NCBI GenBank assembly: GCA_017540585.1
Contig: JAFYAT010000145.1
Span: 1-60,449, forward strand
DNA length: 60,449 nt
DNA from: Bacteroidaceae bacterium
GTDB lineage: Bacteria; Bacteroidota; Bacteroidia; Bacteroidales; Bacteroidaceae
Direction: 5' to 3'
Part shown: positions 17,583 to 52,572 of the stretch, piece after piece
Layout of the letters: the number at the start of each line of letters is the position of its first letter
How positions within the stretch are numbered: the stretch's first letter is position 1
The notes under the pieces: model-generated
Seen by the model: only the letters and a program-made list of their open reading frames with translations
What the model was told of the DNA's origin: nothing
Database searches by the model: none
Position numbers and translations under genes: made by a program

Positions 17583-18207
17583 GCGAAAAAAGATGATTCG
17601 TTGAACATTCAACAGAAAAAAATATTCTATTTTATTTCACTCTTTCTTTTATTGGCCTTTGTTGTCCTTTATGAATGCTTTATCTTTCGTTTATGTTGCT
17701 ATCGAAATTGTTGCATTCGTTTGCAGACGATGGAAAAATATGAGAGTGCCCAGAAAGTCTTTTTGGGGCGTACTTTTGTGCTCATTTTGGAGTTCTTGTG
17801 AGAGTCAGTACTTAGTCAGTACTTTGTCTCTACTTTAATTTTGATTAAAATTAGAGAATATGTGGTTCATGTTCTATATGTTTTTAACTTTGTGGGTCTG
17901 TTCCGATTATTGTATAATGTTTTGAGGATTTCGGTAAGAAAATAGCTCGGATTAGGTACGGACGAATTACGGACGAATTACGGACGAATAACGGAGGAAT
18001 AACGGACTATGAACTTTAGGACAATAATCGGATAAGTATATGTAATTTCGTCTCTCGATTCTGAATAATACAACAGCTGACTATAGACAGGTTGTTACTT
18101 GAATCATGTAATCTGTTTTTGGGTAAAAGTGATTTAATGAGAAAAAGTGTATAAAATAGTTTAAAACACGTAGAATTGTACAAAAGGAGAAGTTTTTCAT
18201 ACGATGA
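17583..18207. other. Gene-free region with two repeat types
   Basis: At 17811-17831 lies GTCAGTACTTAGTCAGTACT, a reverse-strand copy of the repeat at 26855-26893. At 17949-18012 lies an 11-bp tandem array, listed separately. A 78-codon frame at 17565-17801 is hydrophobic and Cys-rich without a promoter or homologue that I know of, and it overlaps the dnaX promoter. I do not call it a gene. Confidence 0.5.
17949..18012. repeat. 11-bp tandem array, ACGGACGAATT units
   Basis: Units of 11 bp begin at 17958, 17969, 17980, 17991 and 18002 (ACGGACGAATT twice, ACGGACGAATA, ACGGAGGAATA, then a partial ACGGACTATG). A further GGAT stands in phase at 17949. The invariant GGA step recurs every 11 bp, close to one helical turn. 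Confidence 0.8.
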
Positions 18208-20992: not shown

Positions 20993-21086
20993 GTTATCTT
21001 TTTTGTAGCCAACAGCGAAAATCTATTTGCTCCAAAGAAAATACGTTTATAATGAAAACAAAGAAGATGCCAAATGAGTGTTTTGT

Positions 21087-21303
21087 CTCCGTTTCACCTC
21101 CGTCGCTTCTCCGATTTATCTCCGTTGTTTCTCCTATCTTCCTTCGAAGAATCTCCACCGAATGTCCACCGCATCTCCACCGAATGTCCACCGTTTCGGT
21201 GGACATTCGGTGGAGATGCGGTGTGGATGTAGTGGATACAATTTGGACAATCAACGAAGGAACAACGGAGAATCAACGTAGATGGAACGTACCAATAACG
21301 GAG
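21087..21303. repeat. 11-bp-phased CTCC/GGAG array with 27-bp perfect hairpin
   Basis: CTCC (or CTTC/GTCC) recurs at 21087, 21098, 21109, 21120, 21131, 21142, 21153, 21164, 21175 and 21186, exactly 11 bp apart. The phase then turns over at a hairpin: arms 21167-21193 and 21197-21223 are perfectly complementary over 27 bp around a TTT loop. Beyond it GGA-type steps continue on the other strand at 21201, 21212, 21234, 21245, 21267 and 21300, largely on the same 11-bp grid. A 22-bp direct repeat (21151 and 21173) lies within it. No credible coding frame is present despite several overlapping open frames. Confidence 0.85.
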
Positions 21304-21354
21304 AAAGAACTGTGGCAAGAAAATGAGCCAATGAGTCAAATCTGGAAATGGTCA

Positions 21355-26841: not shown

Positions 26842-27123
26842 ATGTGAGTCAAAGTACTGACTAAGTACTGACTAATATGAGACTAAGTACTGACTCTGAA
26901 TATAAGGCTTTGCCTTCAATTTTTAAGACATGTACGCATGGTTAATTGACTCTGAAATATAAATCCAGAGTTTTAAATTCTGGAGTTTTTAATACATAAT
27001 CGTTATAGATAGGGGAGCGTTCTTCAAAAAAATACGGAAATGTTGTGCTCCTTAATATATAATTGATTAACTTTGCGCAGAATTAAGTAAAATCTCATTA
27101 ACAAAAGATAAACATTTAAATAT
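26842..27123 (+). promoter_or_regulatory. Intergenic region: AAGTACTGACT repeat and promoter
   Basis: At 26855-26893 AAGTACTGACTAAGTACTGA and a further AAGTACTGACT occur in tandem; the same sequence lies inverted at 17811-17831. A promoter with TTG at 27043-27045 and TAACTTTG at 27068-27075 (spacer 22 bp) precedes the nucleotidyltransferase gene by about 50 nt. Confidence 0.6.
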
Positions 27124-44241: not shown

Positions 44242-44817
44242 ATGAACGTACTTAATCGATTAATAATTTTACTTCTGATTTTCTTGGCTGGAAGTACTCT
44301 TAGCCTTAATGCGAAAAAAGTTAAGGCTGACAGTCCCATCTTGGTTGTAAAGAAAATCCTAAAAAGTAGTAAGAAAAATTCATCATTATACAGGATTGGT
44401 GAGAACATTGATTTGAATGTTATGTCAACTGGTCTTTGGAATGAAGCTGAGAATGATACATTATTCATGTTCATTAATTCTGATTGGTGTGATTTTGTGT
44501 CGATACATACAAAAGATATTTTTTTCGAATTTCATGATTGGCATGAGAAGGGAATAAGAACATGCGTTTCTTCATATAAATTCAAAATTGATTATTCTTT
44601 TGAAAAGATTAAAACGTGGGATAAAAAAATGTTTGAGTCTTGGAAGGAATATCCAAAAGGCTCTTATGATGTTGCCTTAATAACTGCTTATAGGATAATA
44701 CGTAAGAGTCAAAATAAGTATGAGTATTCTTGTTATACATATTATGACCATACTTCCATTGCAGATATAATAAATTCAGGACCAATAATAAGAATTAAAG
44801 ATTACTATTATAAATAA
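44242..44817 (+). CDS. Exported hypothetical protein
   Basis: A 191-residue protein with a clear signal peptide (LIILLLIFLAGSTLSLNA) followed by a basic, Lys-rich segment and a beta-rich domain with many Trp, Tyr and Phe. I do not recognise the family. Composition is more AT-rich than its neighbours. It lies after the alpha-2-macroglobulin gene but 175 nt away, separated by repeats, and ends at a strong hairpin (44828-44880). It is likely periplasmic or surface; nothing indicates activity. Confidence 0.6.
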   Translation: MNVLNRLIILLLIFLAGSTLSLNAKKVKADSPILVVKKILKSSKKNSSLYRIGENIDLNVMSTGLWNEAENDTLFMFINSDWCDFVSIHTKDIFFEFHDWHEKGIRTCVSSYKFKIDYSFEKIKTWDKKMFESWKEYPKGSYDVALITAYRIIRKSQNKYEYSCYTYYDHTSIADIINSGPIIRIKDYYYK

Positions 44818-44827
44818 ACTTAGTCAG

Positions 44828-44880
44828 ACAGCCACTTTTCGTCTCGTAACTATGATGTTTACGAGTCGTAAAGTGGCTGT
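44828..44880 (+). terminator. Long two-part terminator hairpin
   Basis: The outer stem ACAGCCACTTT/AAAGTGGCTGT (11 bp) encloses an inner stem CTCGTAA/TTACGAG. A short T-containing tail follows. It ends the 44242 gene. Confidence 0.75.
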
Positions 44881-44915
44881 TTGTTATGTGTAAACGGCAT
44901 ACTTGTGAATGCTGA

Positions 44916-45179
44916 AAGCGGCTACTCGGGATGGTTGCTGCGGCTGGCAAATTGCGTCAATGCTTCTATTAGACTTCGTAGAAGCTTCTGTTGGGTCTCG
45001 TAGAAGCTTTTATCATTTCCCGTAGAAGCTTTTGGCGATTTCCATAGAAGCGGTTGCCGAATCGGTTAAAAGCTTTCATCATGTATTACCAAAGCTTTGG
45101 TCGAGGCAATCTAAAGCTTTGGTGAATTCTTTCTAAAGCTTTGGAGGAACTGAACGAAAGCTTTGGCGCTTTGGGGGAA
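44916..45179. repeat. 22-bp-phased AAGCTT array with variable spacers
   Basis: AAGCTT stands at 44982, 45004, 45026, 45070, 45092, 45114, 45136 and 45158, with AAGCGG at 45048 and 44916, ATGCTT at 44960 and CTGCGG at 44938. Every one is on an exact 22-bp grid. Spacers are 16 nt and differ, but two sub-families exist: units ending CGTAG or CATAG on the left (44960-45047) and units with AAAGCTTTGG on the right (45092-45179). The period is not a multiple of three, so it is not coding. No CRISPR repeat length or cas genes are present. The array ends 140 bp before tRNA-Val. Confidence 0.9.
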
Positions 45180-45319
45180 ACGTGATGGAGTAGTGGGAAT
45201 ATTGGGAGTACTCGTGCGGGGGGACGCAGGGATTCTGATAAAATAATGCGTAAAACATTTGGAGGTTTGTTGGTAAGTCATTACCTTTGCATCGTATTTG
45301 AGAAGAGGTGGCGTTCTTC

Positions 45320-45394
45320 GGGCGTTTAGCTCAGCTGGTTCAGAGCATCTGCCTTACAAGCAGAGGGTCGGCGGTTCGAATCCGTCAACGCCCA
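45320..45394 (+). tRNA. tRNA-Val (anticodon TAC)
   Basis: A complete cloverleaf: acceptor GGGCGTT/AACGCCC, D arm GCTC...GAGC, anticodon stem TCTGC/GCAGA with loop CTTACAA (anticodon TAC, reading valine GUA codons), and T arm GGCGG-TTCGAAT-CCGTC. The discriminator base is A at 45394 and CCA is not encoded. The gene stands alone. Its 3' end is repeated twice downstream (45434 and 45489). Confidence 0.95.
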
Positions 45395-45510
45395 CTAATA
45401 AACGGTGACGGTTCGTCGCATGACAATAAAGACAATCCGTCAACGCCCACTAATAAACGGTGACGGTTCGGCGCATGATAATAAAGACAATCCGTCATCG
45501 CCAACTGAAA
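45379..45510 (+). repeat. Tandem 55-bp duplication of the tRNA-Val 3' end
   Basis: A 55-bp unit starts at 45379 inside the tRNA T arm (AATCCGTCAACGCCCACTAA), recurs at 45434 with few changes, and a third partial copy starts at 45489 (AATCCGTCATCGCC). The tRNA 3' half is thus copied twice, as left by serial integration and excision at a tRNA attachment site or by slippage. No integrase is adjacent. Confidence 0.85.
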
Positions 45511-51789: not shown

Positions 51790-52420
51790 TGGAGCTTTCT
51801 GCTATCTGCCTTGGATTTTCATGCAGGCAACATACGTTTGTAAAATTTTTTTACGTACTTGTGTAAAAAATCTTTACACAGTGTACTATTTGTGTGGGAC
51901 ACTATGCTTTTTTGTTATCAGTTATTGCCTCCTGACCCATTACTCATCTTTGTCTCATAAACCTTAAAAAACGTGTTTTTCGCATATTTATTCGCATGTT
52001 TTTTCGCATTATGCGAAAATCCGTATTATTCAGTATTACAATATATTACAACGTGCTTTTTGGTACTTTTTCGCATTTTCGCATGTTTTTGCAAATCCCA
52101 TGCTTTTTTCCGACCTGTACAGGTTGATTTTTTTAACACAGAGGTCACGGAGGGCACAGTTTTCTTTGAGAGACCTCCTCTGTGCCTGTGCTCTCTGGGT
52201 TTTTAGAAGCAATTAGCGAACAGAGTAAAATGTATTTTTTACTTTCGACTACGTCGAGCTAAAGGTTCACTATTCACTTTTCAACATTTGTGAGAGTTTC
52301 GAATTGTTCTACTTTTGTCTTGTTTGTGTACTTCATATTGTGACTAATCAAAAGATGTTGAAAACGTAGTTTGGGTGTGGTGTATATGTAATTATGTATG
52401 CTTTTTTTGCTCTGTTTTTC

Positions 52421-52464
52421 TTCGGGAATGGTTCGGGGATTGTTCGGGAATGGTTCGGGATTGC
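52421..52464 (+). repeat. 11-bp tandem array, TTCGGGAATGG units
   Basis: TTCGGG starts at 52421, 52432, 52443 and 52454, exactly 11 bp apart (TTCGGGAATGG, TTCGGGGATTG, TTCGGGAATGG, TTCGGGATTGC), with TTC again at 52465. Confidence 0.85.
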
Positions 52465-52572
52465 TTCACTTTGTCATTTGTTGAGTGTGTTATGATTGTC
52501 GTAATTGTTGGATATGTTTCGAATTGTCCTACTTTGTTGTTCATTCTATTGTTTTAGGCAGGTTCTATATAA

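Follow-up and report, generated by a model that had tools for sequence, protein, structure and literature searches.

A dispersed intergenic minisatellite of Bacteroidaceae with a constrained AAGCTT dyad on an exact 22-bp step

The contig JAFYAT010000145.1 of a Bacteroidaceae bacterium, whose 60,449 nt form the window of this analysis and provide its coordinates, carries an array of AAGCTT cores set on an exact 22-bp grid, and good evidence identifies this array as a member of a dispersed intergenic minisatellite family that is lineage-specific and has a constrained dyad. Eight AAGCTT cores are located at 44982, 45004, 45026, 45070, 45092, 45114, 45136, and 45158 (span 44982-45163), and off-consensus cores occupy four further grid points (AAGCGG at 44916 and 45048, CTGCGG at 44938, ATGCTT at 44960); all twelve points read as in a preliminary description of this DNA. 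Read on this grid, the array comprises a degenerate left edge (44908-44973) with the cores AAGCGG, CTGCGG, and ATGCTT, a left half (44974-45061) with three AAGCTT cores each preceded by GTAG and the AAGCGG of 45048, and a right half (45062-45171) in which all five cores extend to the octamer AAAGCTTT; the nine grid points from 44982 to 45158 thus hold the hexamer in eight cases and the octamer in five. Over 44891-45185, base identity is 0.557 at lag 22 and 0.514 at lag 44 and never exceeds 0.326 at the remaining lags from 5 to 59, and 8 of the 30 AAGCTT words of the window fall within the array. The array sits between a small open reading frame (ORF; 44242-44817) and tRNA-Val (45320-45395) and, in agreement with the non-coding character first assigned to it, no ORF of at least 80 amino acids overlaps it.

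Core and phase vary far less than the spacers, as had been proposed from the window alone, and this holds in several arrays. Specifically, in the genome of the window (G000, 3.62 Mb in 149 contigs) and in the genomes G029 and G025, a search that allowed any gap of 4-34 nt yielded 39 pairs of AAAGCTTT, every one of them exactly 22 bp apart, and all 30 grid cores of the five G029 arrays are AAAGCTTT. Between neighbouring G029 units, the two octamer edge bases, which lie outside the search word, never differ (0/50), whereas 149 of 280 spacer bases do (53%; Fisher P 2.6e-15, only indicative because the units share ancestry and were treated as independent). Pooling nine arrays, a count that leaves out the two-core C14 array of G000, yields 6 differences in 92 edge bases versus 238 in 518 spacer bases. 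Moreover, no length change is seen between array units, the spacers of which measure 14 nt between octamers and 16 nt between hexamers.

The arrays are dispersed and restricted to few lineages. In G000, AAGCTTN16AAGCTT gives 10 forward matches at three loci (C14, C58, and C72, the latter being the window), and the reversed control pattern gives none. At least one such pair occurs in 20 of the 61 genomes searched: G029 holds 25 pairs in five arrays, G025 holds 10 in two arrays, and the other genomes hold 0-4 each, the level of the control pattern, except for G031, the 20 pairs of which mostly belong to a different dispersed hairpin element. This G031 element, read in two of 19 similar pairs (L039 1350-1500 and L040), combines a TAnnTTTG promoter motif with two hairpins, AAAGCTTTTG...CAAAAGCTTT and GAGACAAAAGC...GCTTTTGTCTC, the latter being followed by eight T in L039. 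It has a folding z of -6.3 and looks like a repeated small-RNA gene or a promoter-terminator unit. The ten arrays of G000, G029, and G025 are all intergenic and all placed between co-directional genes; in samples of G000 and G029, co-directional genes border 50 of the 89 gaps that reach 250 bp and 88 of the 136 that reach 150 bp, and the probability of ten out of ten by chance is about 0.003 or 0.013, in a test picked after the data had been seen. Those nearest neighbours that match a Pfam family have unrelated functions, with none in common (among them AMP-ligase, LytTR regulator, Lrp regulator, tRNA-editing domain, rhamnosidase, hybrid sensor kinase, permeases, pantothenate kinase), and in eight of the ten loci a TAnnTTTG motif is found on the promoter side of the array, as judged by eye and without statistics.

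The presence of an array at a given site is not conserved. At the C58 site, the orthologous gap of G029, beside a neighbour protein that is 85% identical, is an array-free stretch of 216 bp, whereas that of G000 measures 556 bp; the tRNA-Val orthologue of G029 aligns with its promoter at 82% over 222 bp and has no array either, and its upstream neighbour differs; and the site of the G029 array next to the tRNA-editing domain has, in G000, a different upstream gene and an unrelated 11-bp array. Hence, an array is common to none of the three sites tested, which comprise two of the three own-genome sites (C14 being the one left out of the comparison) and one G029 site. Conservation of the locus in relatives had been named beforehand as the point on which the preliminary description could fail, and it did fail there, with both tested own-genome sites empty. 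The same intergenic stretch of C58 also contains a second 22-bp dyad array (L012 4990-5180), of TGACGCTACGTCA type by eye, and both C58 arrays are absent from G029.

The spacers are modular, and their words recur between loci. Collapsing near-copies within loci leaves 37 of the 47 spacers of the ten loci, among which 15 cross-locus pairs differ at no more than 3 of 16 positions, versus 2.5 in column shuffles, and the 74 half-words of five letters comprise 33 distinct ones, versus 47.4 in shuffles. The commonest half-words of the 33 distinct octamer-to-octamer spacers are CGTT (20/66), GGTG (12), and AGAT (5). The raw columns of 33 spacers, near-copies included, read (G/C)GTTGAATT(C/T)AAC(G/C), which is near-palindromic, and the mean unit therefore resembles two inverted 11-bp half-units; each of these would consist of CTTT and a 7-nt word drawn from a small shared set. 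The two kinds of spacer edge seen in the window had been taken to suggest two waves of expansion or two binding modes; two waves proved too simple a scheme, as edges of the CTA, CGA, and CCA kind recur in other arrays and species. Two further properties were considered and abandoned: an apparent avoidance of self-complementarity (0.316 vs 0.437) was lost once near-duplicates were removed (0.354 vs 0.378 in 27 non-redundant spacers), and a collinear relationship of whole arrays as paralogues is not claimed, the best pair (L033/L036) differing by 23% with an order-shuffle P of 0.12.

The best reading, to which we assign a probability of roughly 0.45, is that of a dispersed minisatellite the dyads of which are kept by a putative DNA-binding protein; taken on its own, the attribution of the constraint to such a protein stands at about even odds. 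The element would act as DNA and not as RNA: a dimeric protein would bind successive AAAGCTTT dyads two helical turns apart, probably cooperatively, and binding would preserve core and phase while the spacer words drift or are swapped between arrays. Because the neighbours are functionally unrelated and the arrays lie between co-directional transcription units, their likely role would be to package the chromosome locally or to insulate the next promoter, not to control a regulon. The arrays may arise and spread by copying and may later be lost, as REP-like (repetitive extragenic palindromic) and BrickBuilt-like elements. A cooperative architectural protein had been suggested at the outset, together with the placement of all cores on one face of the DNA; the former is still conjectural and the latter holds roughly, since a step of 22 bp rotates the core by about 34 degrees if one turn takes 10.5 bp, and the twelve grid points therefore describe about one full rotation. 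Several points weigh against this explanation. The DNA-binding protein is itself postulated, and the core could stay invariant without being selected if it served as the junction at which ready-made spacer modules are swapped. In the array of the window, three of the nine cores from 44982 to 45158 are AAGCTT without the octamer, and one is AAGCGG. Most of the same-genus genomes searched hold zero or one AAGCTT pair, and two sampled ones carry 23-bp dyad arrays of other sequence. Lastly, the arrays are missing at the tested orthologous sites and are therefore dispensable there.

The main and serious rival, which we hold to be quite plausible although short of even odds, is a selfish or neutral minisatellite produced by slippage or unequal recombination between palindromic cores, with no host function, tolerated outside promoters and terminators, and in which copying has to anneal at the shared core and thereby preserves both phase and core. 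Its lineage-specific presence, its placement as expected for any harmless insertion, the degenerate edges of the arrays, the repeated 44-bp blocks of the G029 C16 array, the near-identical units of G025, and the spacer words common to several loci all fit this explanation, as does the abundance of other intergenic tandem arrays in G000, with periods of 8, 10, 11, 14, and 22 bp. On the other hand, slippage alone does not explain words shared by different loci, and old arrays that drift freely should lose core and phase, whereas the G029 arrays combine widely diverged spacers with an unchanged octamer edge and unit length.

The wider background of periodic arrays bears on two further explanations. 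A lag detector (lags 8-60) applied to about 372 kb of G000, including the window, gave 172 intergenic hits versus 4 in Markov-shuffled intergenic DNA, which merge into 79 loci. The period is divisible by 11 in 38 of these, which form 13 sequence clusters, including one that chains 23 loci; the corresponding figure for G029 is 13 of 35 (7 clusters). Multiples of 11 account for 1 of 19 loci in G002 and 1 of 9 in G033, two genomes of the same genus in which 23 bp is the commonest period (6 loci in either sample), and for 1 of 6 loci in three more distant genomes pooled. Around 31 loci of eight other genomes of the order, with the AAGCTT arrays masked, 20 further intergenic arrays include three at 22 bp and none at 11 bp, and the 11-bp excess is therefore not general. 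Some of the arrays found are likewise dyads, among them those of TGACGCTCCGTCA and GAGTTACCCACTAACTC in G000 (22 bp) and of CGTACCCNNNGGGTACG in G002 (23 bp). Among the six 23-bp arrays of each sample, four in G002 (L193, L195, L199, L200) consist of CGTACCC-NNN-GGGTACG dyad triplets and four in G033 (L201-L204) of CGRWGTC-SSS-GACWYCG dyad triplets, in both cases with an exact 23-bp step.

From these data, one could imagine a genome-wide grammar of 11-bp modules in the intergenic DNA of this clade, in which words are joined head to tail, giving direct arrays, or alternately inverted, giving the 22-bp AAGCTT arrays, with a clade-specific machinery that writes or selects 11-bp steps, a step of 23 bp in sister species, and a nucleoid protein that reads the AAGCTT form by binding its dyads; we regard this scheme as unlikely. 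Pure curvature is less likely still: an array that needs no dedicated protein and acts through intrinsic curvature or helical phasing, for instance with AA/TT steps that recur every 11 bp and so match underwound DNA, would account for the multiples of 11 in G000 and G029, but it is at odds with the 23-bp arrays of G002 and G033, with the periods of 8, 10, and 14 bp, and with the lack of 11-bp arrays around the 31 loci, and curvature does not require an exact octamer. A 22-bp rule for the whole order was likewise considered and rejected: in a sample of 295 genomes, five have three successive AAGCTT at 22 bp, three have them at 23 bp, and seven at 21 bp; the genus of the window is represented there by G000 only, and the 21-bp matches may be partly coding, 21 being a multiple of 3. 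The three spacings are thus about equally rare and there is nothing universal about 22 bp. Among the matches listed for named genomes, many AAGCTT arrays have other arms, such as GCAAAGCTTTGC in Prevotella sp. P3-122; that scan returned at least 119 stretches without control spacings, and the number is not used as evidence. Carriage by viruses was rejected as well, with 10 stretches at 22 bp, 1 at 23 bp, and 111 at 21 bp, the 22-bp ones showing no family pattern by eye.

A transcribed array acting as a structured RNA or a set of terminators is a very improbable explanation. On either strand, the array folds with a lower energy than its dinucleotide shuffles (z -4.5 and -2.9; -3.8 for a G025 array), two terminator-like hairpins (44962-44985 and 45100-45123) lie within the array where 0.5 are expected in the region, and the different AAGCTTTTG element of G031 resembles a transcribed hairpin unit. 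Palindromic cores alone would be expected to yield such z-scores, however, and the self-complementarity of the 27 non-redundant spacers is not above that of shuffles; the only Rfam match of the window is the tRNA, and on the forward strand a scan restricted to sigma-70-like sites, without Bacteroidetes-type promoters, places the nearest 5' site within the upstream ORF, which precedes the hairpin. Regulation of tRNA-Val by the array, suggested by the 95 bp that separate the end of the last core from the probable promoter, is contradicted by the data and hardly credible, given that the G029 orthologue keeps promoter and tRNA with no array and that the 6-8 kb examined around each of the nine other array loci are free of tRNA genes in eight cases and include one, 3.8 kb away, in the ninth; the link to tRNA genes raised in the preliminary description is not supported.

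Directly 3' of the stop codon of ORF 44242-44817, a 25-nt inverted repeat with a 9-nt loop and 88% complementarity (44825-44883, forward strand) probably marks the end of the upstream transcript, a role that stays presumptive because a terminator scan with a loop limit of 8 did not list the repeat. Downstream and outside the array, the forward-strand motif TTTG-N20-TACCTTTG (45258-45289), homologous in G029, is the probable tRNA-Val promoter, its pattern matching the Bacteroidetes-type consensus; the tRNA-Val gene (forward strand, anticodon TAC) is a neighbour and not part of the array system. In a collection of plasmids, the tRNA finds its best matches in Bacteroidales records. Of the three window proteins nearest to the array, the first two lack a Pfam match; the third belongs to the TPR proteins, and beside its orthologue no tRNA was found in 11 relatives. 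Directly behind tRNA-Val, a 55-bp tandem repeat (45379-45506; 2.3 copies, 94%) repeats the tRNA 3' end AATCCGTCAACGCCCAC and could represent integration scars or a simple duplication; in G029, a partial additional copy of the tRNA end also follows the tRNA.

Other intergenic arrays with a period of 11 or 22 bp are present in the window at 17782-18030 (AAGTACTGACT), 26846-26904 (TACGGACGAAT), 52391-52485 (TTCGGGAATGG), 21072-21317 (TCTCCACCGAATG followed by an inverted copy), and 778-843 (TTTTGTACGCGTACAAAA). The AAGTACTGACT and TACGGACGAAT arrays recur elsewhere in the genome, several times adjoining ATGAACTTTAGGACAAT or its complement, and a TTCGGGAATGG array is also present in C9 of G000. 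In G029, an element of about 240 bp that resembles a miniature inverted-repeat transposable element (MITE) carries inverted arrays of GGAGTTAAAAA-like 11-bp units at both ends (L184 550-800, L185 2885-3060, L189 190-439); in L184, the one locus read, these lie inside outer inverted repeats TTCAAGTTT/AAACTTGAA.

In the open-access literature, no paper on a 22-bp AAGCTT array was found. Porphyromonas gingivalis belongs to the Bacteroidales, and the nearest described relative of the AAGCTT arrays is the BrickBuilt repeat of this species. BrickBuilt is a dispersed, intergenic 23-nt minisatellite MITE with a limited host range and a variable unit number (PMC4596501), features that the AAGCTT arrays share together with a unit of nearly the same length (22 nt). 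It consists of one 23-nt sequence repeated without spacers and equipped with a leader, a tail, small inverted-repeat ends, and promoter activity (PMC4596501), whereas AAGCTT units keep an 8-bp dyad and vary in the rest. The arrays are indeed dispersed, intergenic in ten of ten cases, and species-restricted, with empty orthologous sites, but their 22-bp units share mainly the octamer, and no shared leader or tail flanks and no inverted ends were found among the ten arrays. Specifically, the flanks of the ten loci have 35 10-mers in common, exceeding all ten Markov shuffles (14-30); 13 of these 35 are promoter motifs of the TACCTTTGCA or TAACTTTGCA kind, and a 9-mer shared outward from the array is found in one of ten loci.

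REP elements are palindromes of 20-40 bp with an unpaired GTAG or CGTC tag at one end, the CGTC type being reported in Bacteroidetes (PMC3733652). The array cores, in contrast, are set at an exact spacing and carry no constant tag: AAAGCTTT is a loop-free palindrome, and GTAG precedes three left-half cores of the window and is missing from the right half as well as from the interior of the G029 arrays. As to a possible mobilization by REP-associated tyrosine transposases (RAYTs), gene presence in eight genomes gives no co-occurrence of PF01797 genes and arrays: G000 and G025 have one match each, G031 two weak ones (one above the cut-off), and G029, the richest in arrays, none, like G002, G033, G024, and G016. 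The TAACTGA repeats of Beggiatoaceae, Cyanobacteria, and five Bacteroidetes resemble the AAGCTT arrays in that a short word of fixed sequence is arrayed between genes and the distribution is patchy, but they are direct heptamers located mostly just 5' of start codons in the main genome studied (PMC4679880). The AAGCTT arrays are instead dyads parted by variable 14-nt spacers.

Operator arrays of transcription factors and partition systems (iterons, parC- and sopC-like sites) combine repeated sites, helical spacing, and variable linkers, and typically adjoin the gene of their own binding protein. The AAGCTT arrays share the former features, with the kept core and phase and the variable linkers of a cooperative binding array, and differ in occupying 2-5 chromosomal loci per genome with no common Pfam nearest neighbour. 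Repeats of the clustered regularly interspaced short palindromic (CRISPR) type measure about 23-50 bp and alternate with unique spacers; the array repeat of 6-8 bp and the recurrence of its 14-16 nt spacers between loci do not look like CRISPR, in line with the initial view of the array.

A dyad and an exact 22-bp step that are kept while the arrays change place between related species would offer a good handle on a new DNA-binding or repeat-copying system in Bacteroidales. Moreover, the excess of 11-bp multiples in two sister genomes versus the 23 bp of two others of the same genus is a testable oddity, and the length of the step may be dictated either by a nucleoid protein or by the machinery that copies the arrays.
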